From positions 372,001 to 436,000 of the forward strand of contig NZ_VSFF01000004.1 in NCBI RefSeq assembly GCF_008085905.1: a stretch of 64,000 bases of DNA, in the 5' to 3' direction. Within the stretch, counting starts at the first letter, position 1. Each line of letters starts with the position of its first letter. The position numbers were made by a program, and so were the translations under genes. Below the pieces are notes generated by a model that did not search any database, was not told the origin of the DNA, and worked only from the letters and a program-made list of their open reading frames with translations. The stretch is from Actinomadura syzygii (lineage in GTDB: Bacteria; Actinomycetota; Actinomycetes; Streptosporangiales; Streptosporangiaceae). This document shows, piece after piece, positions 26,639 through 45,622 of this stretch.

Positions 26639-26682
26639 ACTGGACCTCCATCACGCAAAGCGATATCGATCAAGAAGACGCC

Positions 26683-27875: not shown

Positions 27876-27938
27876 GCACTCCCCCGGCGGATGAGACTGT
27901 CACGGGTCCGGACGAGGACCATCCCTCTCGTCGCCCGG

Positions 27939-28511: not shown

Positions 28512-28570
28512 ACCCGGCTCCTCTCACCGCCGACCGACCGCACCCGTCCGAGCGGCGGGCACGTTTAAAA

Positions 28571-28582
28571 CTACACTTGTAG
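28571..28582. promoter_or_regulatory. Remote CTACnnnnGTAG box upstream of the TerD gene
   Basis: CTACACTTGTAG matches the core of the two boxes at 23829-23860 and lies 60 nt upstream of the TerD start. It sits in a 456-bp gene-free interval (28512-28967) between the TerD and flavin monooxygenase genes. The rest of this interval shows only a TATGAT hexamer near 28799 as a possible -10 element. A short match can arise by chance. Confidence 0.35.
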
Positions 28583-28967
28583 CAGATCACGGGTCGCGGC
28601 GTCGGCGGACTGGCCACCAAGTGCGGCCGTCCAACCAGACGACCGCCGCCGCCGTGGGAGAAGGCGCACTCAGCCCCGGCGTCACCCGCCGCGTCATCGA
28701 CGACTACGAGCCGTCATGCGCTCTCTTCGCCCCGCGGCGGCCTCGGTCACGCCCCTCCCCGGCCGCCATGGGCGGAACAACTTCTAAAGTAGAGCTGTTA
28801 TGATTTTCGAGCAGCGATACTAGTAGGCTCGTTCATGTTGCTGTCCGAGGTGATCGGCCATGACGTCCCGGAATCACCTGAGCCGCATGCCGCACCATTC
28901 GCCACTGGGGCACCGGCCGGCCCGGGTCGGTGACGCTGGCCGCGCTCCCCGTAAGGAGACATTCGCC

Positions 28968-30122
28968 ATGACCACCACGCACCACCCCATCGCGATCATC
29001 GGCGCCGGTCTGGGCGGCCTGACCGTGGCCCGGGTCCTGCACACCCGCGGCATCGAGGCGGCGGTGTTCGAGCTGGAAGCCGGACGCCATGTGCGCACCC
29101 AGGGCGGCATGCTCGACATCCACGAAGACTCCGGACAGGTCGCGCTGCGCGCCGCCGACCTCCACGACGGCTTCCAAAAGATCATCCATCCGGGCGGGGA
29201 GGGACTGCGGCTGCTCAATCGCGACGCGACCGTCGCGCTGCAACAGCAGGACGACGGCACCGGTGATCGCCCCGAGGTCGACCGCGGAGACCTGCGCGAC
29301 CTGCTCCTGGACTCCCTGCCGGACGGCACGGTCCGATGGGGCGCCAAGGCCACCGGCGTCCGCCCGCTGGACGACGCCCCGCACCGCGGCCGCCACGAGG
29401 TGACCTTCGCCGACGGCGCCGTCATCACCACCGACCTGCTCGTTGGCGCCGACGGCGCCTGGTCGAAGATCCGGCCGCTGGTCTCCCCCGCGCACCCGTC
29501 CTACACCGGCATCTCCTTCGTCGAACTCGACCTTCTGGACGCCCGCACCCGCCACCCCGGAGCCGCCGACATGGCCGGCAGCGGCTTCTTGATCGCCATG
29601 GACGGCGAACGCGGGTTCCTCGCCCACCTCGAAACCGACGGCACCCTGCACGTCTACACCGCGCTGCGGGCCCCCGTGACCTGGTTGGACGGCATCGCCT
29701 TCACCGACATCCCGGCCGCCAAGACCGCGCTGCTGTCCCATTTCGCCGACTGGTCCCCCGCCTTCCACGCCTTGATCACCGACGCTGACGGTCCCCTGGA
29801 GCCTCGCCGCATCAACGCCCTGCCGGTCGGCCACCGGTGGGACCGCGTCCCCGGCGTGACCCTGCTCGGCGACGCAGCGCACCTCATGTCACCGTTCGCA
29901 GGGGAAGGCGCCAACCTCGCCATGCTGGACGGCGCCGAACTCGGTCTGGCCATCGCCGGCCACCCCGGCGACCCCGAAGCCGCCCTGACGGCCTATGAGA
30001 AGGACTTGTTCCCGCGCAGCGAGACCTCGGCCGCCGAATCGGCCGCCTCGCTGGAGCTGCTGTTCGGCCCCGCCCCCATCGCCCGCCTGGTCGAAATGTT
30101 CACCGGCCACGAGCGGCACTGA
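28968..30122 (+). CDS. TetX-like FAD-dependent monooxygenase
   Basis: A 384-residue class A flavin monooxygenase. It shows GAGLGGLTVARVL (FAD Rossmann), FELEAGRHVRTQGGMLDIHEDSG, the DG motif LLVGADGAWSKIRPL, and the GD motif GVTLLGDAAHLMSPFAGEGANLAMLDGAELG. The QGGMLD and SPFAGEG(A/V)N segments are typical of the tetracycline-inactivating TetX/aklavinone-type branch. ATG 28968 follows AAGGAGA by 8 nt; the longer frame from 28860 is rejected. An FMN reductase gene follows after 56 bp with its own ribosome binding site, suggesting a redox operon. Drug inactivation or natural-product oxidation is plausible. Confidence 0.88.
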   Translation: MTTTHHPIAIIGAGLGGLTVARVLHTRGIEAAVFELEAGRHVRTQGGMLDIHEDSGQVALRAADLHDGFQKIIHPGGEGLRLLNRDATVALQQQDDGTGDRPEVDRGDLRDLLLDSLPDGTVRWGAKATGVRPLDDAPHRGRHEVTFADGAVITTDLLVGADGAWSKIRPLVSPAHPSYTGISFVELDLLDARTRHPGAADMAGSGFLIAMDGERGFLAHLETDGTLHVYTALRAPVTWLDGIAFTDIPAAKTALLSHFADWSPAFHALITDADGPLEPRRINALPVGHRWDRVPGVTLLGDAAHLMSPFAGEGANLAMLDGAELGLAIAGHPGDPEAALTAYEKDLFPRSETSAAESAASLELLFGPAPIARLVEMFTGHERH

Positions 30123-30178
30123 CGCCCCGCCCGCCGCCCCAGGGGCCGTGCCCGGCTCCAAACGAAAGGCGTTCCGAA

Positions 30179-30742
30179 ATGATCAAGATCGCAGTCGTCC
30201 TGGCAAGCACCCGCCCCGGCCGTCGCGGCGAGACCGTCGCCGACTGGGTCCTCAAGCACGCCGCCCAGCGCGCCGACGCCCGCTTCGAACCGGTCGACCT
30301 CGCCGAGGTCGACCTGCCCCACCTGGACGAGCCGATGCCACCCGCCACCGGCCGCTACACCCACCAGCACACCAGATCATGGGCCGAGACCGTGGCCGGC
30401 TACGACGGCTTCGTGTTCATCACCCCGGAGTACAACCACTCCTATCCCGGAGTGTTGAAGAACGCCCTGGACCGCGTCTACGCCGAATGGAACAACAAGG
30501 CCGCCGCTTTCGTCTCCTACGGCTTCGACGGCGGCGTCCGCGCCGTGGAGGCGCTGCGCCCCGTCCTGGGCGCGCTGCAGGTCGCCGACGTGTCCGCGCA
30601 GGTCGCGCTCAGCTTCCACAACGACTTCACAGGCTTCACCGAGCTCACCCCCGCCGAACATCAGACCGCCGCACTCACCACCACCCTGGACCAGCTCGTC
30701 GCCTGGTCCACCGCCTTGGCCACCTGGCGCGCCACCGCCTGA
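30179..30742 (+). CDS. NADPH-dependent FMN reductase-family flavoprotein
   Basis: A 187-residue flavodoxin-like reductase. It has KIAVVLASTRPGRRGETVADWV (phosphate-binding loop), the YDGFVFITPEYNHSYPGVLKNALD signature of the NADPH-dependent FMN reductase family, and KAAAFVSYGFDGGVRAVEALR. It transfers electrons from NAD(P)H to FMN or a quinone/azo acceptor. ATG 30179 is preceded by GAAAGG. It follows the TetX-like gene and may be co-transcribed with it, though TetX-type enzymes do not need a separate reductase. Confidence 0.9.
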   Translation: MIKIAVVLASTRPGRRGETVADWVLKHAAQRADARFEPVDLAEVDLPHLDEPMPPATGRYTHQHTRSWAETVAGYDGFVFITPEYNHSYPGVLKNALDRVYAEWNNKAAAFVSYGFDGGVRAVEALRPVLGALQVADVSAQVALSFHNDFTGFTELTPAEHQTAALTTTLDQLVAWSTALATWRATA

Positions 30743-31021
30743 CCAGCACAGCGCCAAGATCCCTGACCGCCCAGCAACCAACGCTCCGCCGTCCCGCCCG
30801 CCATCGACGCGCTCATCACCGCTCTTCTTGCCGAGAACCCTGACCAACGCGCGTCCCATCGGCCAGTCTCAGCGATCGGTCCTCGGCACCGCGGCCGACG
30901 AGACTCGCGCCTGTCCCCATCCGGTTACCGTTTCAGGCGGTAGCGGCGCATGAGGTCTGACGCCTCCTCGCCATTTCGCGTCAGGTGGGTCCGGACGTTG
31001 GCCATAAAGATCCCATCGCGT

Positions 31022-32011
31022 TCATGGGCGTGAAGAGTCAGCGGCTCGGAGGTGGTCGGTGGTGGCACCGAAGGCTTGGCGGTAGTCGCGGGGCGGCAGG
31101 CCGACGTGGCGGGTGAAGTGGTGGCGCATGGTGAGGGGGGTGCCGAAGCCGCAGCGGCGGGCGATGGCGGCGATGGGCAGTTCGCTGACCTCCAAGAGGT
31201 GCTGGGCGGCCAGGACACGCTGGGCCAGGAGCCATTGCAGCGGGGTGTCGCCGGTGGTCTGGACGAAGCGGCGGGCGAAACTGCGCTCCGGCATTCGCGC
31301 CAGGCCCGCCATTTCGGCGACGGTCCACGGGTGGGCCAGATCGTTGACGATCCGTTCGCGTAGCCGCGAAAGGGCGTCGTCCCGGCCGACGCCAACTGGG
31401 ACGGGACGGGTGATGAACTGCGCCTGCCCGCCGGGCCGGAACGGTGCGGTGACCATGGTGCGGGCGATCTCGGCCGCGGCCGCGGCGCCGTGGTCGCGGC
31501 GGACCAGGTGCAGGCACAGGTCGATGCCCGCGGCCACGCCCGCCGAGGTCCAGACGGCGCCATCCCCGACGAACAGGACGTGGGGATCCACGGTCACGCC
31601 GGGATGGCGGCGGGCGAGCTCGTCGGTGTCGAGCCAGTGGGCGGTGGCCCGCCGACCGTCCAGCAGGCCCGCGTCGGCCAGCAGGAACGCGCCCGAGCAC
31701 AGGGACGCCACGGTGGCGCCGCGTGCGTGCGCGGCGCGCAGCGCGGCCCGCACGTCCGGGTGGACGGGCTCGGTCGGGCGCTGGACCCCGGGGACGACGA
31801 CCAGGTCGCACTCGTCCAACCCGTCCAGACCGTGATCGGGCACGCAGGTCACTCCCGGCCGCATCGCGACGGCGGTGCCGCCCGGACCGCAGGTGCGCAG
31901 TTCGAACGCCGGGACGCCGTGGGCGGTGCGATCGAGTCCCCAGACCTCGGCGGCGACGGCGTAGTCGAACACGCGGACGTGCTCGGTGACCAGTACTCCC
32001 ACACGCAACAT
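31022..32011 (-). CDS. GlxA/FtrA-type AraC-family regulator (DJ-1/PfpI plus HTH)
   Basis: A 329-residue regulator. The N-terminal 180 residues form a DJ-1/PfpI-like domain with VASLCSGAFLLADAGLLDGRRATAHW, including the nucleophile-elbow Cys of the fold. The C-terminal domain has two AraC helix-turn-helices: WTVAEMAGLARMPERSFARRFVQTTGDTPLQWL and LPIAAIARRCGFGTPLTMRHHFTRHVGLPPRDYR. It is divergent from an MFS gene with a 104-bp gap and probably activates it. The inducer is unknown. Confidence 0.9.
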   Translation of the reverse strand: MLRVGVLVTEHVRVFDYAVAAEVWGLDRTAHGVPAFELRTCGPGGTAVAMRPGVTCVPDHGLDGLDECDLVVVPGVQRPTEPVHPDVRAALRAAHARGATVASLCSGAFLLADAGLLDGRRATAHWLDTDELARRHPGVTVDPHVLFVGDGAVWTSAGVAAGIDLCLHLVRRDHGAAAAAEIARTMVTAPFRPGGQAQFITRPVPVGVGRDDALSRLRERIVNDLAHPWTVAEMAGLARMPERSFARRFVQTTGDTPLQWLLAQRVLAAQHLLEVSELPIAAIARRCGFGTPLTMRHHFTRHVGLPPRDYRQAFGATTDHLRAADSSRP

Positions 32012-32115
32012 GGCGCGAATCTATCCCACATTGCCGTTTCTGCCACTCACGCCGCCGTTGGCCCGCCGACCAGGCTGGACACCGATCTTTCCCGCTAGGT
32101 GAGGAGTGCGACGCC

Positions 32116-33282
32116 ATGCCCTTGGCTTTGTTCGCCCTGGCCGTCACGGCGTTCGGGGTGGGGACCTCGGAGTTCGCCGTCATGGGGCTGTTGCCGCAGG
32201 TCGCCCACGGGGTGGGGGTTTCCGTTCCGGCGGCCGGGGGCCTGATCACCGGCTACGCCGCCGGTGTGATCGTCGGGGCGCCGCTGCTCACCGCCGCCTC
32301 GACCAGGCTTTCGCGCCGCACCACCCTGATGGTGGTCGCGGCGCTGCTGGCGGCGAGCAGCGTCCTGTCGGCGGTCGCCTCCGGCTACGGCGTGCTGCTG
32401 GCGGCCAGGGTGGTCGCGGGCGTGCCGCAGGGGGCGCTGTTCGGGGTCGGGTCGGTGGTCGCGGCGCAACTCGTCCCGCCGGACCGGCGTTCGAGCGCGA
32501 TGTCGGTGATGTTCGGCGGGTTCACCATGGCGAACGTGGCCGGGGTGCCGCTGGTGACATGGCTGGGCCAGGCCGCGGGCTGGCGGGCCGCTTTCTGGGG
32601 GATCGCGGCACTGGGCGCAGTGTCGATGGCCGGCATCGCCGTGCTGGTCCCGCGCCGACTTCGACCCGACGACGAGGCGGGCCTGCGTTCGGAACTGGCG
32701 ACGCTGCGGCGGCCCCAGGTCTGGCTCGCGATGGCGGTGACGACGGCGGGCTTCGGCGGCGTGTTCGCCTCCTTCACCTACGTCACGCCGATGATGACCA
32801 CGGTCGCCGGGTTCGGCCCGTCCAGCATGACGGTGCTGCTGGTCGTCTTCGGGCTGGGCATGGCCACCGGAAATCTGGTGTCGGGCCGCTATGTCGGACG
32901 GCGTCCCATGTCCAGCCTGTATGTGTTCCTGGCCGGGCTGACCGTCGTGCTGACCCTGTTCGTGGTGACCGCGCACAGCGAGCCCTTGGCGGCCTGCACC
33001 TTGTTCATGCTGGGGCTGTTCGGGTTCGCGACCGTTCCGGCGCTGCAGATGCGCGTCCTGGACAAGGCCGCGGGCGCCCCCGCCCTCGCCTCCGCGCTGA
33101 ACATGTCGGCGTTCAACATCGCCAACGCGCTCGGCGCGCTCCTGGGCGGGACGGTGATCAGAGCAGGGTTCGGCTACACCGCCCCCAACGCCGTCGGCGC
33201 GCTGCTGGCAGCCACCGGGCTCGCCTTGGCCGTCTACTCAGGACTGCTCGACAAGCGCACCGAGGCGGCGATCACACGATGA
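32116..33282 (+). CDS. MFS transporter of the AraJ/DHA1 type
   Basis: A 388-residue exporter with about twelve transmembrane helices. The N-terminus ALFALAVTAFGVGTSEFAVMGLLPQVA, with GTSEF, is characteristic of the drug:H+ antiporter-1 group containing AraJ and chloramphenicol-resistance proteins. RVVAGVPQGALFGVGSVVAAQL and the mid-loop RRLRPDDEAGLRSELATLRRPQVW are also visible. It is divergent from the AraC-type regulator and translationally coupled (ATGA overlap) to a methyltransferase, so the trio forms a regulator-exporter-enzyme unit. Confidence 0.9.
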   Translation: MPLALFALAVTAFGVGTSEFAVMGLLPQVAHGVGVSVPAAGGLITGYAAGVIVGAPLLTAASTRLSRRTTLMVVAALLAASSVLSAVASGYGVLLAARVVAGVPQGALFGVGSVVAAQLVPPDRRSSAMSVMFGGFTMANVAGVPLVTWLGQAAGWRAAFWGIAALGAVSMAGIAVLVPRRLRPDDEAGLRSELATLRRPQVWLAMAVTTAGFGGVFASFTYVTPMMTTVAGFGPSSMTVLLVVFGLGMATGNLVSGRYVGRRPMSSLYVFLAGLTVVLTLFVVTAHSEPLAACTLFMLGLFGFATVPALQMRVLDKAAGAPALASALNMSAFNIANALGALLGGTVIRAGFGYTAPNAVGALLAATGLALAVYSGLLDKRTEAAITR

Positions 33283-34031
33283 CCGGCGAGACCGAACGCT
33301 ACACACCTGGCCACGACACGTCCGCCATCGATTTCATGGCCGCCAGGACGGCTGCGACGCACGCACGCTTCTTCCTCCCGCACCTGGCCCCGGGAATGAC
33401 CTTGCTGGACGTGGGTTGCGGGCCCGGAACCATCACCGCCGACCTGGCCGCCGCCGTCGCACCGGGACACGTGCTCGGACTCGACCGGCAAGCCTCCCAG
33501 CTCGTCGACGCACGCGCCCTCGCCCGGCACAGGGGCCTGACCGACATCGAGTTCCGGGAGGGCTCCTGCTATGACATCCCGCTGGACGACCGATCGGTGG
33601 ACCGCGTCTTCTCCCACGCTCTGATCGAGCACCTCGCCCACCCGGTTCGGGCGCTGGCCGAGATCCGGCGGGTGCTGCGCCCCGGCGGGACGGTCGGCCT
33701 CTGCAGCCCCGACTGGGGTGGCTTCCTACTGGCCCCGCCCTGCGACGACGCCATCAGCGCCTACACACGCCTGCAACAAGCCAACGGCGGAGACCCCTTC
33801 GTCGGCCGCAAACTCGGCCGGTACCTGCTCGAAGCGGGATTCGAGCAATACCACCTGGACGCCCACTACGAACGCCATGCCGACCCGTCCCGCATCGCCG
33901 ACTACCTCGCCGTCCAACTCGACACTGCAGGACAGACGACCCACGCCCGCCGACTCCGCAACTGGGCCGCCGACCCCAACTCGATGTTCGCCCAAGCATG
34001 GGTCACCGCCGTTGCCACCCGCCCCCGCTGA
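33279..34031 (+). CDS. Class I SAM-dependent methyltransferase (UbiE-like)
   Basis: A 250-residue methyltransferase. Motif I is LLDVGCGPGTITADLA, motif II region GLDRQASQLVDARALA, motif III SVDRVFSHALIEHL and post-III EIRRVLRPGGTVGLCSPDWGG. This is the small-molecule methyltransferase pattern (UbiE/COQ5-like). ATG 33279 overlaps the exporter stop by 4 nt, showing translational coupling. It may modify the compound exported by the neighbouring MFS protein. Confidence 0.9.
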   Translation: MTGETERYTPGHDTSAIDFMAARTAATHARFFLPHLAPGMTLLDVGCGPGTITADLAAAVAPGHVLGLDRQASQLVDARALARHRGLTDIEFREGSCYDIPLDDRSVDRVFSHALIEHLAHPVRALAEIRRVLRPGGTVGLCSPDWGGFLLAPPCDDAISAYTRLQQANGGDPFVGRKLGRYLLEAGFEQYHLDAHYERHADPSRIADYLAVQLDTAGQTTHARRLRNWAADPNSMFAQAWVTAVATRPR

Positions 34032-34977
34032 ACAAATCGTGAACTGCGCGGCGAAGGCCACATCTTGGTCACCTCTATTGCAAAGTCGGCCACGCCGGCA
34101 GTTTCCAGGGCCGCAATGCAAGCCGCGCTCGACGACACGGGACGCGAACTGACCGCGCTGCCGACCGAGTCGCCCGGCTGGTGGGACCGCCCACGAGGGT
34201 GACTCGGATTTCCCGGGCGACCAGGTCTAGAACGGGGCGTCGCCGCGGTGCGAACTTAGTCCCTACCGGTGCGGTAAGAGCCCATTTCGGCCGACGGGGC
34301 ACGGCCAGAATAAGCATCCAGAACCCTGCTTTGAAGGTCTCGCCATTCGCGCGGACGCACTGGCATCCAAGAGTCTTCAGAGTGCGCCCGGAATGGTGTA
34401 CACGCGACCACCATCGTCCGCCGGGCAGCGGGTCAGCGCCGACATTCGACTGGCTCGTAGCGTGAGTCGCGAGGGCGGACTGAACGACGGCCTGACTGGC
34501 GCTGTGGTCGGATCGGCGCAAGCGCGACGAGGTTGGCTGGCAACCGCCGGGCCGCGATCGTGAACTGCGGTGAATCCAGGCGCAGGTCCGGCGTGGTGCT
34601 GCGGCGTCATTTCGAGGTGCATAATCCGACTCTCGTGAATTCGCACCTCAAACCGGACACAAGATCGCAGCAAGTTGGCCGGAGTAGGTCACGAACATTG
34701 ATGTTGCGCCCCTCGTGGTCCCCTGGAAGCCGGCGTCGAGGCGTGGACCTGGTGTGAGGTCGGTGGCGGATCGCCAACTTGTATTGGTGATCCTTCGTCG
34801 GAAGGCATGTCCCTGTCCTCCAATGATGCGTAAAGTCATGGTTGCAGGGGGATTTCAAAAGCTAAGGAGTTATTGCGCCTGTGTCTCATTTCTGTGCCCA
34901 GCGACAGCACCCCTGCTCGACCACCTCGTGATCATCATCCCAGGCTGGACGCGAGTGATCTCGATGAAGGGACCAGC
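34032..34977. other. Gene-poor stretch before the CHAT gene pair
   Basis: About 950 bp without a convincing gene. The base composition is visibly less GC-biased than the flanks and ORFs are short in all frames. A 5'-proximal segment (34090-34201) encodes a fragment ending MQAALDDTGRELTALPTESP and then a stop, possibly a decayed gene end. An AAGGAG box at 34864-34869 sits 3 nt before an in-frame TTG (34873), which would give the next protein a 35-residue extension. Confidence 0.4.
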
Positions 34978-35649
34978 ATGTCTGAGTGGATCGTTGATGG
35001 AGCCGGTATCTCGCCTCCGACTTCCGAGGTGCTTCTCGATGCGGTACGGCACGGTGCCGTTCGACGGGCTCCTCGGCATCGGTTGGCGGTTCGGCTCTTG
35101 GAGATGGTCATTCACGAGAACCGGCGTTGGTTTGGTGACGCCGCGGTGCGTCTTGACGTGCTCGTCGTCCATGGCGGCAACACGACGGCAGAGTATGCGC
35201 CGACCACGTTCAGCTTTCCTCGGGTGGGTGATGGTGATCGCCTGCCGATCGGTGACGGCGGACTGTTGTTGTTCCACGGTCGTCCGAAGTGGTTCCTGAG
35301 CATGTTCGTCGCCGTTTCACGGGACAAACCGCAGGCCTCGCCGCTGGCGGAGCTGGTCCAGGACGTAGTCACGTCCGAGCCTGCCACAACGCTTCAGGCC
35401 CAGGCGCTCACGCTCGCCACCGGTGTTCCCGATCCTCAGATGCTGGCGATGGCCTGGCAGTCGGCGCTGCTCGTCGGAGACTCGATGCTGAACGCCCTCA
35501 GACGGGAAACAGGAGCTTCCATCGGTGTCTACCGCGATTCCTGGCTGCGCGGCAAGGACGGGTGGGGTGTCGGCCGCCATCCGGCCAGCGGCTTGCTGAC
35601 CGCGAAGGACCTCGCATTCGCCTTTGAGATCGTCGAGGAACCGGAGTGA
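34978..35649 (+). CDS. Unrecognised protein coupled to the CHAT protease
   Basis: A 223-residue protein that I do not recognise. It begins MSEWIVDGAG and has an N-terminal helical part (SEVLLDAVRHGAVRRAPRHRLAVRLLEMVI). A beta-rich middle (VRLDVLVVHGGN, TTFSFPRVGDGDRLPIGDGGLLLFHG, WFLSMFVAVSRD) follows, and then a helical C-terminus. No signal peptide, transmembrane helix or catalytic signature is evident. ATG 34978 is chosen for its GAAGGGA box 6 nt upstream; TTG 34873 is a longer option. Its stop overlaps the start of the CHAT gene (GTGA), so the two are translated together and very likely act together, for example as activator, sensor, substrate or inhibitor of the protease. Confidence 0.8.
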   Translation: MSEWIVDGAGISPPTSEVLLDAVRHGAVRRAPRHRLAVRLLEMVIHENRRWFGDAAVRLDVLVVHGGNTTAEYAPTTFSFPRVGDGDRLPIGDGGLLLFHGRPKWFLSMFVAVSRDKPQASPLAELVQDVVTSEPATTLQAQALTLATGVPDPQMLAMAWQSALLVGDSMLNALRRETGASIGVYRDSWLRGKDGWGVGRHPASGLLTAKDLAFAFEIVEEPE

Positions 35650-38447
35650 GTGACGATATCTCGTCGTTCAATGCAGAGCAGCGAAGGGAACTCCTGTCGC
35701 TGTACGACTTGTTGATGACAGAGCTAAGTGCCGCGCTCACACCCGAGCAGGAGGCCCTCTTCGGCTTCACCCGGCACCAATTGCGCAACGATCAGCAAGT
35801 GGCTGACGACGTTGTCGTCAGAGGGCTACGGATTCTCGGCGAGCAGGCGAACGCCGACAGGCGGCCGGACCTTTGGCGCAAGGTCCGGCGCGTCTTGTAC
35901 GAGGTGACGGCGGACCCGGCCCTCGGCCCCCCGTCCGACGCGCGTCTGAAGTACAGCGGTCCTCCTTTGACGAGGCCGCAGTTGCGCAGGCTTCGGTCGC
36001 TGTATGACCTTGCCCTGGAAGAACTGCATGACGTGCTCACACCGGACGAGTTCGCGGTCTTCGATGCCGTGCGGCACCGGTTACGCAACGACCTTCCGAT
36101 GACCGACCTGGCCGTGATGGGTCTTAGAGAACTCGGCGGGCTAGCGGCCGATCATCGACGGTCCGAACTCGTCGTGCGGCTCCTGCGTAGCTATCTCGAC
36201 CTGATTCCCGACGCCTGGAGCATCTGGTACGACCTCGGAAACCATCTGGTGCATTCGGCGGATCTGGAGGCTGCGCTAAGCGCCTATGACGAGGCGCTAC
36301 ACCGCAACCCCGACCACGCTTATAGCTGGTACAACCGCGGGTGGGTGCACTACGAACTGAAGCACTACGACGATGCCGTGGCCGACTTCGTGGCAGCCGC
36401 TCGGCTGGACTGCGACCTGAGATCCTTCGCGAAGGCGATCACCCGCCGGATCATCAAGGTTCGCGGCTTCACTGCCGTTTTCGAGATCATCACTGATTCT
36501 ACGCTGCCACTGAGTCAACGCCAGAAAATCGTCCAAGCACTACAGGAAGCCATCGACGATGCCCGCGATTTCGATGGTTGGTACCTGACCACGCCGCCCG
36601 ACCTCTCACAAGACGCGGAAAGCCAACTGGCCGCACTGGCTCTTCGCGCGGAACTGGCGGATATTCGACGGGAAAGCCCCCTCACGCCGGGCTTTCTCTT
36701 CTTCAGCCGTACCACCACGGAGTACAACGTCAAAGTTGTTGAAGAGTCGGAACTACACGAGAAGCTCTGGTATCTCTCGCCAGACGGGCGACCCAGCGCA
36801 CCGGACCGGGTTCGACACCTACAGCGGCTGGAAGAAGCCCTGCGAGTGGGGCGACGGCTGGGGGCGCTCGAGGCCGTCTGGGCCGTTCATTATGTTGCAG
36901 GTGCTATCGCGTTGTCGTGCCACATGGACGGCGCGGTCGACTGGCCGTCGCCGGTTCTGCGACTTGCCGTCGCACGCCGCTCCGCCGACGGTATACATCC
37001 CGACGACCGAGGGAATGCCGCGAAAGTCGAGCACTGGATCCGAGAGCGTGGAGGAAAGAACGTCTCTGACTACGCCCTAAGCCAGTTTCGCGCTGCTGCG
37101 GACACGCTTAATGAACTGTCACTCGCTCTGGCTGGACCGGACACTGAGGCGGTGATCTTCCCAGCGGACATGAACCAACTGCTGACGGAATACATAGACG
37201 ACACCGAAGGACGCATCGAACAAGATACTCCAATCCCGGTAAGACTCGGCTCGACCCTTCGCGCGGAATCATTGTGGCTGCTCATCGAGCCGGTCTACCG
37301 CGAATGGGTATTGGCCGCCGACTACGGGGGACGTCCAGACGCCCGCCTCACCGCGCTCTGCCACGCGCGGCAGTTCAATGCAGTCGCGGCGACCGAGTTG
37401 TGGTCCGAAGTCCCGGCCGAGCTTTGGCAGGCGTGCCGGGCGCGGATCGTCGAGGCATACGACACGGACATCACGATCACCGAAGTTCAGGAAGCACTTG
37501 GTCCGGAAACGGTCCTCGCTGATTACTACACTTACGAGATCTTCGGCGAGACGGTGTCCCGGCTTGCCATCACCGCCTCGGAGGCCGCTGTCACGACGCG
37601 GGATGTCAACGTCACCGGTGGCGAACTCAGGGCAATGATCACCTCGGGCCGACCTGCGACCCTTTGCTCGACCGGATTTCCTTCGCAGGTGGAGGACCCG
37701 CTCGTGCTCCCGTCTCCGCTGCCGCGAACCGTGATCTTGGTCCCGTACGGCTACCTGCGCGAACTTCCCATTCATGCCCTGCCCACGGTGCGAGCGGCGA
37801 TGGACAGGGGCGAAGTGGATCGCGTCGTTTATCTCCCGACCGTCTCGTTCGCGACACGCCCGTACCGTCCCCCGACCCGCCCTGAGCGCGCATTGTTCGT
37901 TGGCTGTGACCCGGCTGGCGACATCGGTTTTGACGCGGACCTGGAATCTCTTCGTGAGTACGTCGACGAGGTCACGGTTCTGACTGATGACGATGCCACA
38001 CTCGCCACCGTCCTCACAGAAATGCAGCGACACGACCTCGTCCATTTCGCCTGCCACGGTGATCTGGACCCGCGCCTGGCCGCCGGGTACCTGGAACTGG
38101 CAGATGCGCGACTGTACCCCTGGGACGTGCTGGCCCAACCAGTCCCTCAAACCGTCGTCATGAATGCGTGCCTGGGGATCAGCGTCCAGCGTATCGAGAC
38201 CACATCGGACGGGGCATTCGGGCTGCACGATGCCTTCCTCTTGGCCGGTGCACGCCACGTCGTCGGCGGCTTGTGGGAGGTCCATGAATGGACCGCACGG
38301 CAGTTCGCCAAGTCGATGTATCGCAGGCTGTCCGCCGGACTTGACGTTCCGGCAGCAGTCGCCAGCGCACAGCAGGATCTATACAGCGCCACGCCCGACC
38401 CGTTTCTCTGGGCACCCCACGCATGCTTCGGCGAATGGCGATCCTGA
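35646..38447 (+). CDS. TPR-CHAT domain protein (caspase-like protease)
   Basis: A 933-residue protein with a C-terminal CHAT peptidase domain. The catalytic dyad is visible as His804 in HFACHGDLD and Cys842 in VVMNACLGISV, with the flanking LVPYGYLRELPIHALP and AFLLAGARHVVGGLWEV blocks diagnostic of CHAT. TPR-like repeats occur at about 192-256 (SIWYDLGNHLVHSADLEAALSAYDEAL and SWYNRGWVHYELKHYDDAVADF). The N-terminus holds a duplicated helical module: residues about 9-85 (LLSLYDLLMTELSAALTPEQ) and 108-190 (LRSLYDLALEELHDVLTPDE). No transmembrane region is seen. CHAT proteases are caspase relatives used in bacterial conflict systems such as Craspase. Substrate and trigger are unknown here. Confidence 0.9.
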   Translation: MSDDISSFNAEQRRELLSLYDLLMTELSAALTPEQEALFGFTRHQLRNDQQVADDVVVRGLRILGEQANADRRPDLWRKVRRVLYEVTADPALGPPSDARLKYSGPPLTRPQLRRLRSLYDLALEELHDVLTPDEFAVFDAVRHRLRNDLPMTDLAVMGLRELGGLAADHRRSELVVRLLRSYLDLIPDAWSIWYDLGNHLVHSADLEAALSAYDEALHRNPDHAYSWYNRGWVHYELKHYDDAVADFVAAARLDCDLRSFAKAITRRIIKVRGFTAVFEIITDSTLPLSQRQKIVQALQEAIDDARDFDGWYLTTPPDLSQDAESQLAALALRAELADIRRESPLTPGFLFFSRTTTEYNVKVVEESELHEKLWYLSPDGRPSAPDRVRHLQRLEEALRVGRRLGALEAVWAVHYVAGAIALSCHMDGAVDWPSPVLRLAVARRSADGIHPDDRGNAAKVEHWIRERGGKNVSDYALSQFRAAADTLNELSLALAGPDTEAVIFPADMNQLLTEYIDDTEGRIEQDTPIPVRLGSTLRAESLWLLIEPVYREWVLAADYGGRPDARLTALCHARQFNAVAATELWSEVPAELWQACRARIVEAYDTDITITEVQEALGPETVLADYYTYEIFGETVSRLAITASEAAVTTRDVNVTGGELRAMITSGRPATLCSTGFPSQVEDPLVLPSPLPRTVILVPYGYLRELPIHALPTVRAAMDRGEVDRVVYLPTVSFATRPYRPPTRPERALFVGCDPAGDIGFDADLESLREYVDEVTVLTDDDATLATVLTEMQRHDLVHFACHGDLDPRLAAGYLELADARLYPWDVLAQPVPQTVVMNACLGISVQRIETTSDGAFGLHDAFLLAGARHVVGGLWEVHEWTARQFAKSMYRRLSAGLDVPAAVASAQQDLYSATPDPFLWAPHACFGEWRS

Positions 38448-38973
38448 ACTTCGGGGTGGGCGGGAGAGCGGTTCCTCGGTCAGATGCGGTCGAGGCCGAC
38501 CAACGCCACCGCCTGGCCCGGCACCCGCTCACCAGGCAGCGGGAGCGCGTGGTCCGCGCCCGCCTGCTCCAGAAGACCGGCGACACCACGCGGGCGGCCG
38601 ACCTGGTCCGGGCTGGACGTCGGCCGAGTGTTCGCTTGACGGCCACGAATGGGATCAGGTCGGCGGCATCGGCATCTTGGGCGGCGCCTCGCCCAACATT
38701 CGGGTAACCGGACGACCTGCCGTTATGGAGTCGCTCGCACTCTTCGACCCCAGAGGCGCGGCCCTCTGTAGGGCTAAGCGGCAGGCGTTGAGCCGGGCGC
38801 GGCCAAACGCAGGTGCGCAGATCAATCACCCAGGTGAGCGACGTCCACTTCCTGGACACGTCCATTTGCGGGGATAAGGTGCGTTCTAGAGGGTATTACG
38901 ACAGAGGACCGAGTTTGCGGCGGGCCATTATTACGGTAACGGTCATTACTCTCTGGAACGACGATAGGTCCCG
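38448..38973. other. Interval between the CHAT gene and the LuxR-type regulator
   Basis: No intact gene is supported. A broken plus-strand frame (about 38610-38830, reading DGHEWDQVGGIGILGG and then RPAVMESLALFDPRGAALC) has some coding look, without a start, and may be a gene remnant. The last 90 bp are AT-richer (CCATTATTACGGTAACGGTCATTACTC region, 38922-38951) and probably hold the promoter of the next gene. Confidence 0.4.
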
Positions 38974-39738
38974 ATGGCTTCGAATCGACAGGTAGGGCGG
39001 GACGGTACCCACATCGCCCTGGTCTCGCTGGGCAGCGAAGTGGTCCGGTGCGGGCTCCGCACCATGTTGTGCGAGCTCAACGCGCTGGAGGACGTGGTCG
39101 CCAGCGGCAACTTCGACCACAGCATGGAGTTGCTGCACTCGGGTCGTCCCACGCTGTTGGTTCTGAACTACGGCGACGAGCCTCAGCAGGCGGAGAAGCT
39201 CGCGAGCACGGCCGCCGACGTCGGCGTGCAAGTGCTGTTGATGCTGCGGACCGTCAGCGGAGAGACGCTCGCGCCGGTGGCCGCCGTGCCGGCGGACGGC
39301 TATCTGCTGGAGCCGACGTTGACCCGCGAGGTGCTGATGAACGCACTGAGCGACTTGGACAGCGGGTTGGTACCGATCCCCCATCCAGTGGCGCGCAGGC
39401 TCCTGGCCGAGGTCGGCCCCGCCACCCCGCCCGACCCCCTCGCACCGTCCAGCCCTGTCAACCCGACCGGGCCCGTCGCGGCGGTGCCGGTTCGCGAAGG
39501 CGCGGAGCCCACCACGCTGACGGATCGCGAGCTACAAGCGCTGTCGCTGATGGTGGAAGGGCTCAGCAACAAGCAGATCGCCCGCCGCCTGGGCATCTCC
39601 GAGCATGGCGCCAAACGGCACGTCGCCAACATCCTGGCCAAGCTCAACTGCTCGAACAGGACGCTGGCGGCCGCCGTCGCCCTCAGCCGCGGACTGGTCC
39701 GGGACCCCGGGACCTCGCGCCGGGCTCGACGCCGCTGA
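38974..39738 (+). CDS. LuxR/NarL-type regulator with a degenerate receiver domain
   Basis: A 254-residue regulator. The C-terminal LuxR helix-turn-helix is textbook: TLTDRELQALSLMVEGLSNKQIARRLGISEHGAKRHVANILAKL. The N-terminal domain follows the receiver fold (THIALVSLGSEVVRCGLRTML..., then PTLLVLNYGDEPQQ), but the acidic pocket (usually DD) is LVSLGS and the phospho-acceptor position is Asn (LNYGD). It is therefore probably not controlled by phosphorylation, as in atypical response regulators that sense ligands. No kinase gene is nearby. It borders the siderophore supply operon and overlaps its last gene tail-to-tail by 56 bp, so it is a candidate pathway regulator. Confidence 0.85.
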   Translation: MASNRQVGRDGTHIALVSLGSEVVRCGLRTMLCELNALEDVVASGNFDHSMELLHSGRPTLLVLNYGDEPQQAEKLASTAADVGVQVLLMLRTVSGETLAPVAAVPADGYLLEPTLTREVLMNALSDLDSGLVPIPHPVARRLLAEVGPATPPDPLAPSSPVNPTGPVAAVPVREGAEPTTLTDRELQALSLMVEGLSNKQIARRLGISEHGAKRHVANILAKLNCSNRTLAAAVALSRGLVRDPGTSRRARRR

Positions 39739-41830
39739 ACACCAGCCCGCCACGATCCAGCCCACCGCCATCCAGAGCGGCCAGAGCGCGCAGCGGTGCG
39801 CGGGCTTTCAGCAGCATCTCTTCGTACTCGGCCGCGGGATCGGAATCCAGCACGATGGCGCCGCCCGCGCCCACCGACAGATGGCCCGGGCGCGCCACCA
39901 TGGTGCGGATGACGATGTTGAGGTCCGCGGTTCCGCCCAGGCCGAAGAAGCCGATCGCGCCGGAGTAGACGCCGCGCGCCCGCCCTTCCAGCCTGTCGAT
40001 GATCTCCATGGTGCGCAGCTTCGGCGCTCCGGTCATCGATCCGCCGGGGAAGCACGTCCTCGCCGCTTGGACGGCGGTCACGCCCTCCCGCAGGTGGCCG
40101 CGCACGGTGGAGACGAGCTGGTGCACCGTTTCGTAGGACTCCACCGCCATGAAGCGCGGCACGCTGACCGTGCCGATGTCGCTGATACGGCCCAGGTCGT
40201 TGCGGAGCAGGTCGACGATCATGAGGTTCTCCGCCCTGGTCTTGTCCGAGGCGGCGAGTTCGTCACGCAGGGCGGTGTCCAATGCCGGTTCAGGAGCACG
40301 CGGTGCGGTGCCTTTGATCGGCTTGGACTCGGCCATCCTCTCCCCGTCGACCTTCAAGAAGCGCTCGGGGGAGGAACACAGAACGTGCATCTCGTCCAAC
40401 CGCAGATATGCGGCGTAGGGCGCGGGATTGAGTCGCCGCTGAGCTAGATAGAGCTCGTAGGACGAGCCGTCGAAGGGGATTTCGGCGCTGTTGGTCAGGC
40501 AGATCTCGTAGCTCTCCCCGGCCCGCAGCAGCCGCAGGCACTCCTCGATGTCCGCCATGTAGCGCTCTCGCGGCCGGACGAGCCACGGCTCCGGATCGAA
40601 TTCCGGACCCGGCTGAGGCACCGGTCGCGCCCTCAGCCCGCGCCTCCGGCAGACATCGGCGGCCCTGGAGACCCAGGCGCGGGCAGCCTCCCGGCTCTCA
40701 CCCCTGCGGTCGGTCAACGCGAGCGCCCACGCCTCTCCGGCTTCGTGGTCGATGGCCACGAACCTGCTGGCCGACATCCAGATGGCGTCGGGCGACGACG
40801 AAACGTATTCCGCGGGGGCACCGCACTCGCGCTTCAACTCGTAGCCGAGATAGCCGACATAGCCGCCGTTCAGGTCGAACGGCAGCGCCGGATCGCTCGG
40901 GACGGCCCGTGCCGCGAGATGCGCGTCGAGCACGTCGAAGATCGAGGCGGAGACCGTGGACTCCCGGCCGCCCGCTCGCACCACCACACCGCCGGATCCC
41001 GGGCGGCAGCACAGGATCTCGCCGTGCGGCCCGCCCGCGTCGCCCAGAAAGGAGAAGCGGGACAGGCCGGGCTCGACCCGGCTGCTGTCCAGCCAGAAGG
41101 AGTAGGGCTCGTCCGCGAACAGTTCGGTGAAGACGTCCTCGGCATCGGGGACGCTGGAAATTCGCTCGACCTCCAGGGACCAGCGATCGGACGTCCCCAC
41201 CCGCGCAGCCGAGCCGTTCACGGCACCCCTGCCCGGCCTGGCCGTCGCGTTGTACTCCGCCGCGAGGTCGCGGAAGTTCTTCATCAGCGTCGGCCCGAAG
41301 TCGGTCGATATCGACTCCGGGTGGAACTGAACGCCCCACCAGGGCATCCCCCGGTGTCTCAGGCCCATCACCACCGAATCCGCGGTCCATGCCGTGACCT
41401 CCAGGTCGTCGGGCACGGGCGTGGCGACGCACAACGAGTGGTACCGCACAGCATGGAAGCCCTGGGGCAGACCGCGGAACAGGTCGCGTCCGCAATGCCT
41501 GATCTCTTCCACCTGACCGTGGACGGGTGCGGGCGCGGGCACCACTTCGGCGTCCGACATCCAGGCCAGCGCCTGATGACCGAGGCAGACTCCCAGCGTG
41601 GGCAGCCCCGAGTCGCGGACGAGGTCGAGCGTGACGCCGACGTCGCGGTGCTGCTGCGGACGTCCGGGCCCGGGAGAGACGATGAGCGCGTCGAACCGGC
41701 TCAGATCCAGCTCGGCCCAGCCCGGATCGTCGTTGGGCATCACCACCGGCTCCACCCCGTAGGCCCGAGCGGCGAGCTGGAACAGGTTGTAGGTGTAGGA
41801 GTCGTGGTTGTCGACGATCAGTGTACGCAC
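39683..41830 (-). CDS. pabAB: Fused aminodeoxychorismate synthase (PabA-PabB)
   Basis: A 715-residue fusion making 4-amino-4-deoxychorismate from chorismate and glutamine. The N-terminal glutamine amidotransferase (about 1-195) has IVDNHDSYTYNL, SPGPGRPQ, the nucleophile GVCLGHQAL and WGVQFHPESI. The C-terminal chorismate-binding domain has FLKVDGERMAESKPIKGTAPR, ENLMIVDLLRNDLGR and TCFPGGSMTGAPKLRTMEIID. The Lys in PIKGT is the PabB active-site Lys; anthranilate synthase (TrpE) has PIAGT and salicylate/isochorismate synthases differ, so I call ADC synthase. GTG 41830 is the start, overlapping the PabC gene by 13 bp. It is the last gene of the left operon driven from the iron-box region. Confidence 0.93.
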   Translation of the reverse strand: MRTLIVDNHDSYTYNLFQLAARAYGVEPVVMPNDDPGWAELDLSRFDALIVSPGPGRPQQHRDVGVTLDLVRDSGLPTLGVCLGHQALAWMSDAEVVPAPAPVHGQVEEIRHCGRDLFRGLPQGFHAVRYHSLCVATPVPDDLEVTAWTADSVVMGLRHRGMPWWGVQFHPESISTDFGPTLMKNFRDLAAEYNATARPGRGAVNGSAARVGTSDRWSLEVERISSVPDAEDVFTELFADEPYSFWLDSSRVEPGLSRFSFLGDAGGPHGEILCCRPGSGGVVVRAGGRESTVSASIFDVLDAHLAARAVPSDPALPFDLNGGYVGYLGYELKRECGAPAEYVSSSPDAIWMSASRFVAIDHEAGEAWALALTDRRGESREAARAWVSRAADVCRRRGLRARPVPQPGPEFDPEPWLVRPRERYMADIEECLRLLRAGESYEICLTNSAEIPFDGSSYELYLAQRRLNPAPYAAYLRLDEMHVLCSSPERFLKVDGERMAESKPIKGTAPRAPEPALDTALRDELAASDKTRAENLMIVDLLRNDLGRISDIGTVSVPRFMAVESYETVHQLVSTVRGHLREGVTAVQAARTCFPGGSMTGAPKLRTMEIIDRLEGRARGVYSGAIGFFGLGGTADLNIVIRTMVARPGHLSVGAGGAIVLDSDPAAEYEEMLLKARAPLRALAALDGGGLDRGGLVFSGVEPGARSRGPGPVRG

Positions 41831-42642
41831 GGCAGTTCCCAGAGGTTGGCGGCGGGCAGGACGGCGCGGTGCCGTACGGCCCGCCGCCAGTCCGCGGCCC
41901 TCGCCGAGACCCTGGTGGCCGTCGAACGGCCGTCGGCGCCGACCCATGCGCGCACCGGACGGAGGCCGTGCAGAGCGTTGAGGGTCCAGGTCTCCAGCGT
42001 CGGCAACTCGGCGAGGTCGACGCTCTCCCGCCGGACGGCGCATCGCCAGCACTCGGCCAGCCGTTCCAGGTGAGTCCTGGTCACCGACGGGAGGACGGGG
42101 AGGTCGGCTTCGGGCACGCACAACTCGTCGCCGCGCCACCACACCAGCGCGCTGTGGGCCGTCTCCAGCACGGTGCCGCCGCTGCCGTAGAGCAGAGCGT
42201 CGTCGGCGCCGACGGTCTTGGCCCGATCGCGCAACCCAGCCAGGACGCGGAGATCAGGGCCCTTGACGGTGGGGCACACGCGGGGATCTGCGTCCGGCGG
42301 GATCCACAGCGTCACCTCTCCGGCTCCGGGAGCGGGCGCGGGTCTGGGCCAGAGAGCCAGCCTGGGCTCGGGCCCGCCGTACGCCTCGATCCTCGGGAAC
42401 CAGCGGCCATGGGACGGCAGCCAGTGACGCACCGCGTCCAGGAATTCCAGGACGGTCGCGGGCGACAACTCGGGCACCAGCTCCGCACACGCGCCCAGGA
42501 AGCGCCGCCCGTGCAGCATCAGGTCGCGCACCCGCCCCTCGGCCACCAGCCAGGAGTCCACGACCACCGGGGCGTCGGGACGCCAGTCCGGCACGGGGGT
42601 CAGGCCGGACGGTTCGTTCCACACCAGGCGCAGGCTCGACAT
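41818..42642 (-). CDS. pabC: 4-amino-4-deoxychorismate lyase (PabC), class IV PLP enzyme
   Basis: A 274-residue class IV aminotransferase-fold protein. The likely PLP Lys is in CPTVKGPDLRVL, and VGADDALLYGSGGTVLETAHSALVWW supplies the conserved Glu of the family. WTLNALHGLRPVRAW is the C-terminal cofactor-phosphate region. Adjacent to and overlapping PabA-PabB, it should eliminate pyruvate from ADC to give 4-aminobenzoate. ATG 42642 lies about 10 nt after GGGAGAG; GTG 42651 is also in frame. D-amino-acid aminotransferases share the fold, but the context favours the lyase. Confidence 0.87.
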   Translation of the reverse strand: MSSLRLVWNEPSGLTPVPDWRPDAPVVVDSWLVAEGRVRDLMLHGRRFLGACAELVPELSPATVLEFLDAVRHWLPSHGRWFPRIEAYGGPEPRLALWPRPAPAPGAGEVTLWIPPDADPRVCPTVKGPDLRVLAGLRDRAKTVGADDALLYGSGGTVLETAHSALVWWRGDELCVPEADLPVLPSVTRTHLERLAECWRCAVRRESVDLAELPTLETWTLNALHGLRPVRAWVGADGRSTATRVSARAADWRRAVRHRAVLPAANLWELPCVH

Positions 42643-42644
42643 AG

Positions 42645-44195
42645 TCACCACTCTCCCGTGCGCACCGCGAAGCGGCGCAGCTTGCCCGTCGCGGTGCGCG
42701 GCAGCCTCGCCCGGAATTCCACGTGGCGCGGCACTTTGTAGGGGGCGAGCCGGAGCCGGGCCAGGGCGATCAGCTCGCTCTCCAGCCCGGCGCGGACCGC
42801 GTCGGAACAGGGCACCACGAAGGCGCGCAATTTCCGCGCGCCGTGCTCGTCGGGGATGACCGCCACGGCGACCTCGGACACCGCCGGGTGCTCGCCCAGC
42901 ACACGCTCGATCTCCAAGGGGGAGACGGTGATGCCGCCGACCATTTCCATGTCGTCGTTGCGGCCGCAGTGCTTCAGCGCGCCGCCGTCGACGTATTCGG
43001 CCAGATCCCCGGTGCGCAGCCAGCCGTCGCGCAGCGCCCGCGCGGTCTCGGCGGGACGGTCCAGGTACCCGGCCATGACCGAGGCGCCTCGCACCCAGAT
43101 CTCTCCCGAGCCCTCCGTGATGAGCGCGCCGTTCTCGCCGCGCAGCACGACCTCGTATCCGGGCAGCGGACGGCCGATGGTGCCGGGCTCGTCCCGCCAG
43201 GCAGTATTGGAGCAGTAGGCGTGGCCGACCTCGGTGGAACCGAGCTGGTCCAGGACCGGAACGCCGAGAACCTCACTGGCCCTGGCACCCAAGGCGAGAG
43301 ACAAGGACTCCCCGGCCGAGACGGCCACCCGAACAGATGAGAAAGCCTCGGGCGGGCATTCAGCCACCAGGTTGGCGTAGGCGGACGGAACGCCGTACAG
43401 CAGCGTCACGCCGTGCCGCGCCACGATCTCGGCGATCTCCACCGGCACCGGCCGGTGCGGCACGAGCACGGCGGCGGAGCCGGAGAAGAGCGGGAAGACC
43501 AGCGCGTTTCCCAGGCCGTAGGCGAAGAACAGCTTAGAGACCGACAGCGTGACGTCGTCGCGCCGCACGCCCACCACGCCGTCGCCCGCCGCACGCTGGT
43601 AACGCTCCGGGTCGGCGTGGCGGTGCAGCGCCGCCTTGGGGACGCCGGTCGTGCCGGACGTGTACTGCGCATACAGCGGTGTGTCGCCGGACACGTCCGC
43701 GACCGGTCCGGCGGGGGCGTCAGCGGCCAGCCGCATCAGGCGCTCGCCCGTCAGGACGGCAGGACCGGCGAAGCGTCCGACGAGGTGGTGCTCGGCGACC
43801 ACGAGGCGGGCCCGGCAGTCGTCGGCCAGGAAGCCGTGCTCGTCGGAGACCATCTCGGGATTGACCGGTACCGCGACCGCGCCGATCCGTGCGGCCGCGA
43901 GGAACGCCGTCACCCATGCGATGCCGTCGCCCATCGAGATGAGCACCCGGTCACCGGGGCGGACGCCTTGGCCGACAAGGACCGAAGCGGCGGAGGCGGC
44001 CATCGCGTGCACCTCGCCGTGCATCCAGGAACGCTCCGCCGTGTGGAAGGCGGGCCGCTGCCACCAGCCCTCCCGGCGGGCCTTGGCGGCGAGACGCAGC
44101 GCGAGGTTCGCGGACGGGCTCCCCGCCTTCCCACCGCCGCGCCGTGGCGCGGTCGGCGTCTGGACCGTGGCACGGCTGGACGGAGGCTCAGGCAT
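42645..44195 (-). CDS. Benzoate-CoA ligase-like aryl AMP-ligase
   Basis: A 516-residue ANL-superfamily adenylating enzyme. It shows the P-loop YTSGTTGVPKAALHRH, VTLLYGVPSAYANLV, the LGSTEVGHAYCSN block, WLRTGDLAEYVDGG, MEMVGGITVSPLEIE and the catalytic Lys in RTATGKLRRFA. LGSTEVGH and the overall layout match benzoate- and 4-hydroxybenzoate-CoA ligases more than the DhbE/YbtE salicylate-AMP ligases. ATG 44195 follows GGAAAGG. In context it should activate 4-aminobenzoate (or its oxidised form) as the CoA thioester, either for the neighbouring diiron enzyme or for transfer to the aryl carrier domain of the NRPS. No other free-standing aryl ligase occurs in the cluster. Confidence 0.88.
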   Translation of the reverse strand: MPEPPSSRATVQTPTAPRRGGGKAGSPSANLALRLAAKARREGWWQRPAFHTAERSWMHGEVHAMAASAASVLVGQGVRPGDRVLISMGDGIAWVTAFLAAARIGAVAVPVNPEMVSDEHGFLADDCRARLVVAEHHLVGRFAGPAVLTGERLMRLAADAPAGPVADVSGDTPLYAQYTSGTTGVPKAALHRHADPERYQRAAGDGVVGVRRDDVTLSVSKLFFAYGLGNALVFPLFSGSAAVLVPHRPVPVEIAEIVARHGVTLLYGVPSAYANLVAECPPEAFSSVRVAVSAGESLSLALGARASEVLGVPVLDQLGSTEVGHAYCSNTAWRDEPGTIGRPLPGYEVVLRGENGALITEGSGEIWVRGASVMAGYLDRPAETARALRDGWLRTGDLAEYVDGGALKHCGRNDDMEMVGGITVSPLEIERVLGEHPAVSEVAVAVIPDEHGARKLRAFVVPCSDAVRAGLESELIALARLRLAPYKVPRHVEFRARLPRTATGKLRRFAVRTGEW

Positions 44196-44766
44196 GACGG
44201 GACCTTTCCGGCGGGCCGCCACGGGGACGGCGCGGCAGGTCGAGGGGGGCTGTGAGGAAGGCGCCGTCCACGGGGCCCACCGGCCACCAGCCACGCGCGA
44301 TCAGCTCCGCGAGCGCGTCCGCGCGGTCCTCGGCCAGCGCGTCGGCGACGAGGGTGCCGAGCAGCCAGAGGATCGCCCCCGACATCGCCAGCGCGTCGTC
44401 GTCCTCGGGATCGGCGGGACGCAGCCGCGGGGTGGCGACCAGCATCGCCACGTGCTCGGCCAGTTCCAGCCGGTCCGCGCGGCCGGTGGCGTGGAGCCGT
44501 CGCCGGGCGTCGTGACGGCGGCGCTCCAGCGCGGCCAGCCAGCTGGGAGCGACGCGGTCGAGGAGCGCGGCGGGGACGTGCGGCGTCGGCCGCACCGGCG
44601 CGCCCGCGAGCGTTTTCGGCAAACCCTCACTCGCCCAGCCGCGCGCCCCGTCCGCCGGGACGTGCGCGGATACGCCGTGGAGCAGGGCCGCGACGCGGTC
44701 TCCGCCGGGTCCGAGGTCGCGGGCGAGTCCCTCCGGCGGGGCGCTCAGCTCGTAGTAACGGGCCAA
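44188..44766 (-). CDS. Unrecognised helical protein in the aminobenzoate operon
   Basis: About 192 residues, Ala/Leu/Arg-rich, probably all-helical (for example WLAALERRRHDARRRLHATGRADRLELAEHVAMLVATP and GAILWLLGTLVADALAEDRADALAELIARGWWP). No family was recognised. TTG 44766 is the likely start, with GGAGG 10 nt upstream inside the diiron gene. It overlaps that gene's end by 22 bp and the ligase start by 8 bp, so it is tightly coupled to both. By position it may be a partner or structural subunit of the diiron enzyme, as PaaC is to PaaA, but no metal ligands are visible. Confidence 0.65.
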   Translation of the reverse strand: MARYYELSAPPEGLARDLGPGGDRVAALLHGVSAHVPADGARGWASEGLPKTLAGAPVRPTPHVPAALLDRVAPSWLAALERRRHDARRRLHATGRADRLELAEHVAMLVATPRLRPADPEDDDALAMSGAILWLLGTLVADALAEDRADALAELIARGWWPVGPVDGAFLTAPLDLPRRPRGGPPERSRHA

Positions 44767-45461: not shown

Positions 45462-45622
45462 CCCATCTCCTTCCGGACATCATCGACGGAAGCTAAGCGC
45501 GGCCCGAAGCGGAGGCAAGTGCCCGGATGGGCACCTCGAAAGAGCACCTCCCGACTTGGGACGGTGCATCGATCGGGCACCGCTGGCACGTTCCCGCTGA
45601 TCAACCTTTCCGGGCCGACCGG

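Follow-up and report, generated by a model that had tools for sequence, protein, structure and literature searches.

We analysed a stretch of 64,000 nucleotides from Actinomadura syzygii (contig NZ_VSFF01000004.1, positions 372,001 to 436,000; hereafter the window) that carries two overlapping genes, one for a small protein of 223 residues and one for a TPR-CHAT protease of 933 residues. CHAT and caspase-like proteases act with partner proteins in defence and regulated cell death, and the original prediction, made from the DNA alone, regarded the pair as a candidate conflict module in which the small protein, of no recognised family, is a partner of the CHAT protease. We found that the small protein belongs to a family (for which "DOM" is used here as a working name) that lacks a name in Pfam or NCBIfam, yet has relatives and a recurring context in which it is encoded beside, or fused to, several types of peptidase. 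Since DOM mostly occurs without a directly coupled CHAT gene and is mostly found with trypsins or caspases, the idea of a CHAT-specific partner was rejected and the finding shifts to a partner common to several protease families. We tentatively propose that the pair is an acquired two-gene module, acting in conflict or regulated death, in which a membrane-docking, protease-gating DOM protein works with the TPR-CHAT protease.

The layout of the pair agrees with that originally described, and the overlap suggests translational coupling:

34978..35649, + strand: small protein gene, DOM member (223 residues, ATG start)
35646..38447, + strand: TPR-CHAT protease gene (933 residues, GTG start)
35646..35649, + strand: overlap of the two genes (4 bp, GTGA)

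The start at 34978 is supported by a relative encoded on a Nostoc plasmid, which begins comparably (MSEWIVDGA here, MNQRQWLIDEA in Nostoc).

Consistent with the absence of a recognised family, the small protein matched nothing in Pfam, NCBIfam or PADLOC at E<=1 and nothing in PHROGs at E<=0.1; this part of the prediction stands for the libraries searched, but relatives do exist. Indeed, the DOM of the window aligns along its full length with 24 relatives at 26-42% identity, and the Nostoc plasmid relative (locus L012), a stand-alone protein, is 38% identical (E 2e-39). A protein search of the order placed DOM in 4 of 345 genomes, window included; two of the other three are Nonomuraea loci in which DOM forms the C-terminus of a caspase protein (L014, 855 residues, with an N-terminal caspase by Pfam; L015, 854 residues, by our own profile). 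The remaining one, a weak match in genome G260 (E 9.7e-4), falls in an open reading frame (ORF) of 1017 residues that reads as an AAA/LuxR-type regulator and was judged spurious. Among 396 genomes drawn from the phylum, two contained DOM, again counting that of the window. Two records of the plasmid collection matched, one of them an 11.85-Mb Nonomuraea replicon, no phage record matched the Nostoc DOM, and 0 of 25 pattern stretches from viral contigs were confirmed as DOM relatives. Finally, a pattern-seeded scan of genome contigs, whose E-values are relative to its own candidate stretches, gave 27 DOM loci in cyanobacteria, actinobacteria, one metagenome-assembled genome (MAG) of Chloroflexi and one of Polyangia; as the scan rests on two short patterns, it does not show absence elsewhere.

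The collection considered below thus contains 31 loci, namely the 27 of the scan, the window, L012, L014 (N. gerenzanensis) and L018 (genome G564), after removal of two duplicates, L015, which shares its contig with L042, and L013, which repeats the locus L014; L025 was kept despite its short ORF (169 residues). The 25 aligned members gave five NCBIfam families at E<=0.1 (best 0.0047, succinate-CoA ligase, in 3 of 25 members) and six Pfam families at E<=1 (best 0.016), all read as chance matches. Neither Trypco1 nor Trypco2, models of which are presumably present in that Pfam library, is among these six. EACC1 (PF19953, 107 positions) was also considered as an identity for DOM and rejected, with no match in the small protein (Pfam, E<=1) or in the 25 members. 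Searches of PDB chains with DOM gave a best E of 0.47 by sequence and 0.56 as a profile. A literature search, outside which supplementary data fell (those of Kaur et al. 2020 included), returned no description of DOM.

Two architectures account for nearly all loci. In 14 of the 31, DOM closes a protein of 824-923 residues with the order caspase-mid-DOM, and in 15 (13 cyanobacterial, one Chloroflexi and the window) it stands alone; the 2 partial loci, L041 and L045, were placed in no class. Eight of the 13 cyanobacterial stand-alone loci have a trypsin gene directly 3' of DOM, with gaps of 17-202 bp, and one (L021) has a caspase gene at this place, so that a partner exclusive to CHAT, as originally supposed, is not what the family displays. 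The EAD1 profile matches seven of the eight trypsin loci, and the eighth is an EAD8-trypsin by Pfam (L031:9904-10983); the recruiting domain therefore appears to have been swapped while DOM stayed. Six of the 8 trypsin loci have a MoxR profile match, and in L024 an EAD1-trypsin and MoxR (own profile, tblastn) occur together with VMAP-C (Pfam), a vWA gene not being identified there. Because of the MoxR matches and of VMAP-C in L024, at least some of the trypsin loci, L024 at least, are assigned to the ternary VMAP/MoxR systems described by Kaur et al. 2020. Pfam searches on representatives confirmed the EAD1-trypsin, caspase fusion, EAD8-trypsin, VMAP-C, caspase and CHAT assignments. Because L012, L014 and L018 supplied part of the sequences for the CHAT, caspase, trypsin, EAD1, MoxR and vWA profiles, these three loci match by construction; their assignments are backed by Pfam, except for MoxR, which rests on record annotation. 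In the fused class, a 950-residue AAA_16/TPR/GerE regulator (Pfam; L033:4147-6999) lies just upstream of the caspase-DOM gene of L033, and ORFs of 914-1192 residues occupy the same place in 13 of the 14 loci.

CHAT genes are also found around DOM. A TPR-CHAT gene adjoins it in two loci, the window and the Chloroflexi MAG (L030), where a TPR-CHAT ORF of 1153 residues ends at L030:3540 and DOM starts 35 bp on, at 3576. The gene order of L030 is the reverse of that in the window, its CHAT is the sole CHAT match in the 5.6-Mb assembly, and blastp aligns the two CHAT proteins in the CHAT region only. Within the fetched flanks, 11 of the 14 caspase-fused loci contain a CHAT ORF (either strand, 14 to 3964 bp away); the density in 13 actinobacterial genomes, which leaves out the Polyangia genome (28 CHATs in 11.6 Mb), is 138 CHATs in 133.6 Mb, or ~1/Mb, and ~0.02 would be expected per 18.5-kb stretch. 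CHAT proximity in cyanobacteria (2 of 13 loci, L012 and L021) is uninformative because six genomes there hold 34-82 CHATs each.

A tree of 28 domain rows separates stand-alone from fused copies by a single branch (100/96), and the DOM of the window falls on the stand-alone side despite its actinobacterial host. The split persists, at 100/100, in a second tree computed without the long-branched L032; L043 and L041, with short or split matches, are outside both trees. The row of the window is itself a long branch (1.49 in the first tree, 1.57 in the second) and both trees carry a long-branch warning, which makes its position unsure.

The AlphaFold2 model of the window DOM, computed with its 24 relatives, has a predicted local distance difference test score (pLDDT) of 77.7 and a predicted template modelling score of 0.76, and consists of beta strands with a helical insertion:

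35080..35640, + strand: predicted C2-like beta-sandwich including the helical insertion (residues ~35-221, model)
35344..35511, + strand: helical insertion (residues ~123-178; helices 123-131, 134-145 and 153-178)

In a second structural search, the 50 best rows were C2 domains by title or multi-domain proteins holding one, where we take the PLC and PI3K entries to hold a C2 domain. The best row was Munc13-1 C2B (Z 7.5, root-mean-square deviation (rmsd) 3.0 over 110), and the C2 domain of cPLA2 gave Z 7.3 (rmsd 2.9 over 116). When the Chloroflexi protein was placed first, a second model gave a list of mostly C2 domains with a best Z of 6.1. Because both best values are below 8, the models only hint at a C2-like beta-sandwich with a helical insertion. 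The GlgE enzyme that came first among the PDB rows of plain Foldseek (E 0.025) was disregarded at rmsd 17, and one viral model matched DOM at E 5.1e-4 (rmsd 11.8). The insertion is rich in Gly and Ala and hydrophobic in the relatives, less so in the window; the most hydrophobic 21-residue stretch of the 24 relatives lies inside it, with means of 1.31-2.10.

The second protein of the pair is, as predicted, a TPR-CHAT protein, with the following features:

35679..35915, + strand: N-terminal repeat copy 1 (residues 12-90, no named family)
35979..36212, + strand: N-terminal repeat copy 2 (residues 112-189, no named family)
36222..36410, + strand: TPR region (residues 193-255, Pfam)
37725..38432, + strand: CHAT domain (residues 694-929, Pfam PF12770, E 1.1e-29)
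38055..38057, + strand: His804 codon, predicted catalytic (H of HFACHG)
38169..38171, + strand: Cys842 codon, predicted catalytic (C of NACLG)

The CHAT score is 104.3 bits against a Pfam gathering cut-off of 24, and no Peptidase_C14 match was obtained in Pfam, CHAT being related to caspases. His804 and Cys842 line up with the corresponding H and C in Csx29-type CHAT proteins (phmmer, a weak match at E 0.011), so that the protein is classified by sequence as a CHAT peptidase with predicted catalytic His and Cys. With Csx29, the protease of Craspase (type III-E CRISPR), it shares the TPR and CHAT architecture; however, the NCBIfam Csx29 score of 34.3 bits does not reach the cut-off of 300 and, among the matches seen, the CHAT region alone is covered. 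The two N-terminal repeats of ~80 residues are 41% identical (local score 133 versus 27 +/- 4.6 in 300 shuffles) and form a candidate sensor module. Across 296 genomes, one weak 60-residue match was their only relative besides the window, and an EAD1 identity was rejected (profile comparison probability 0.9%). The CHAT protein yielded no full-length relative, nor any relative in the plasmid collection at E<=1e-10. With its first 688 residues as query, short matches came from 67 other genomes (342 searched), and among the matches listed nearly all lay in the TPR region.

Several signs of acquisition accompany the pair. The GC content at third codon positions is 0.73 and 0.72 in the two genes versus 0.83-0.92 in four nearby genes. 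Three close relatives have a LuxR-type gene 81-93% identical to that at 38974 in the window, and their fetched stretches align with the window only rightward of the following edge:

38854..38913, no strand: right edge of the DNA that three relatives do not share (their alignments begin here and run right)

With 26000-38850 as query (40 of 985-1341 candidate places scored per genome), the three relatives matched up to ~33.7 kb and then in two short stretches, one of ~105 bp at about 34.1 kb and one of 102 bp at about 38.5 kb, both outside the pair, for which they gave no match. The DNA around the pair thus seems to be missing from these relatives, and the pair was probably acquired. On its left, the gene-poor tract noticed originally is confirmed at a length of 946 bp:

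34032..34977, no strand: upstream gene-poor tract (GC content 62.5%), by reading of ORFs

The original suggestion is supported as far as a probably acquired two-gene CHAT module is concerned, with a partner of which some relatives lie in predicted conflict loci (EAD1- or EAD8-trypsin, VMAP-C, MoxR, caspase), but no defence island was seen around the pair in a by-eye reading of the flanking ORFs of the window, which read as metabolic, transport and regulatory genes. No window ORF matched the MoxR and vWA (single-sequence), EAD1 or trypsin profiles, VMAP itself not being searched there. Scans for tRNA, repeats, promoters and Rfam families gave nothing usable.

Taken as a mechanism, our proposal is that DOM would dock on the membrane itself or on a ligand located at it through its predicted C2-like beta-sandwich and, in complex with the neighbouring protease, would hold it in place and in check. 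The N-terminal repeats and TPRs of the TPR-CHAT protein may sense a trigger and release the protease activity, which would then stop or kill the cell. The same partner would be reused elsewhere, with EAD-trypsins (VMAP/MoxR-type systems) and with caspases (mostly fused). As DOM is repeatedly associated with trypsins and with members of the caspase/CHAT superfamily, something that these peptidases share (location, gating or a common substrate) is more likely than a CHAT-specific role.

Several observations weigh against this proposal. On the structural side, plain Foldseek found nothing in the PDB at E<=0.001, the second model is poor (pLDDT 64.8) and built from the same 25 rows as the first, the best Z values of 7.5 and 6.1 are in a range (<8) that possibly reflects only a common arrangement, and the best 21-residue mean of the window insertion is 0.91, lower than in the 24 relatives. 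On the genomic side, no second instance of the exact pair was found, only one further case of adjoining CHAT and DOM genes (L030) was seen, and the search of 241 Chloroflexi genomes detected DOM in 1 (that of the query) and in none of the other 240, so the CHAT-DOM pair is rare. Part of what was originally held to speak against the idea, a partner widespread without the CHAT gene, is indeed observed, DOM being mostly without a directly coupled one. Around the fused loci, the CHAT genes differ in their strand and in how far away they lie, L032, L034 and L037 have none, and these loci are related to one another, so that the CHAT count does not represent independent events. Finally, the Calothrix-type loci L019, L020, L023 and L025 have DOM without a recognised peptidase nearby (own profiles, tblastn).

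The main rival, which we consider rather unlikely, makes DOM the dedicated substrate of the protease, cleaved in a gasdermin-like manner so that the hydrophobic helical insertion is freed to enter and damage the membrane. Fungal gasdermin genes adjoin S8 or CHAT protease genes (PMC10197012), and bacterial gasdermins adjoin caspase-like proteases, the Lysobacter system needing a second, trypsin-like protease (PMC9079055, a commentary). The window pair shares this two-gene logic with CHAT, caspase-like or serine proteases, and the swapping of DOM among peptidases resembles, by analogy, gasdermin clusters. The Gly/Ala-rich, hydrophobic insertion of the relatives would suit such an effector, as would the C-terminal position of DOM in the caspases, which in EACC1 systems is the place of variable domains read as effectors (PMC7159879). 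In contrast, the insertion of the window is only weakly hydrophobic, C2 domains are what the DOM models resemble in the structural listings obtained, and gasdermin provided no family among the Pfam matches of the 25 members and no row in the structural listings, an absence that does not by itself exclude a gasdermin fold.

DOM may otherwise inhibit the protease or be its signalling substrate, its effect then being regulatory and not on the membrane, which seems unlikely to us. CHAT proteases act with partner proteins, as in Craspase (PMC9729208, PMC10028731), and the caspase-DOM genes are preceded by the regulator gene of L033 and by large ORFs at the same place in other fused loci. However, the window pair has no coupled regulator gene, and the LuxR-type gene at 38974 starts 526 bp after it, in a flank common to relatives without the pair. 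Quite unlikely in our view is the bolder claim that DOM is an undescribed, C2-like membrane effector whose helical insertion is unleashed by its paired CHAT, caspase or trypsin, analogous but unrelated to gasdermin, and as such a second, independently evolved bacterial pyroptosis-like executioner. Least probable is acquired cargo that is not for defence or is losing its role (housekeeping, developmental or without current function): a stand-alone DOM in 1 of 345 genomes of the order (that of the window), its long branch (1.49) and the 526 bp without obvious gene after the pair would fit, but neither frame is interrupted, the pair retains its overlap and its catalytic residues, and DOM is alignable throughout with its relatives.

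The membrane-docking, gating partner remains our first choice. Besides Craspase and the gasdermin-protease gene pairs, two known systems come closest to the pair. In the EACC1-caspase system (Kaur et al. 2020, PMC7159879), a small 5' gene precedes a 3' caspase-superfamily peptidase gene and the partner is thought to be membrane-associated; this order is found here too, with the difference that the peptidase is a TPR-CHAT protein. EACC1 itself gave 0 matches in the genome of the window, and none in the control genomes either. Secondly, the trypsins of VMAP ternary loci often adjoin Trypco1 or Trypco2 (PMC7159879, PMC10907252), which like DOM in cyanobacteria are encoded beside the trypsin in VMAP/MoxR conflict loci; unlike them, DOM pairs with caspase and CHAT too.

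Some features of the surroundings were also recorded. The genome of the window (9.7 Mb, 27 contigs), which kinship labels and named loci would place with Nonomuraea in the Streptosporangiaceae, has 7 CHAT matches, and a second CHAT gene (G000:C22:348925-349773, a 455-residue open frame) lies on the same contig ~22 kb left of the window. Within 39700-58012 of the window, two large + strand ORFs, 45705-52565 (2286 residues) and 52562-58012 (1816 residues), adjoin ORFs that read by eye as a PabA/PabB-type synthase and an AMP-ligase, and this region may be a biosynthetic cluster of the p-aminobenzoate type. A strong AT skew of -0.254 marks the right end of the window (62001-64000).

A module of a peptidase and a partner is of a known kind. 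Our results suggest that DOM is a partner which protease-driven systems of defence or cell death can reuse. If this is true, one domain family would link the EAD-trypsins of VMAP systems, caspases and TPR-CHAT proteases, which are usually treated apart, and DOM would be a handle for finding protease-driven conflict modules that are unnamed in the searched profile libraries. The pair of the window is a minimal two-gene version in which the role of the partner may be tested directly.

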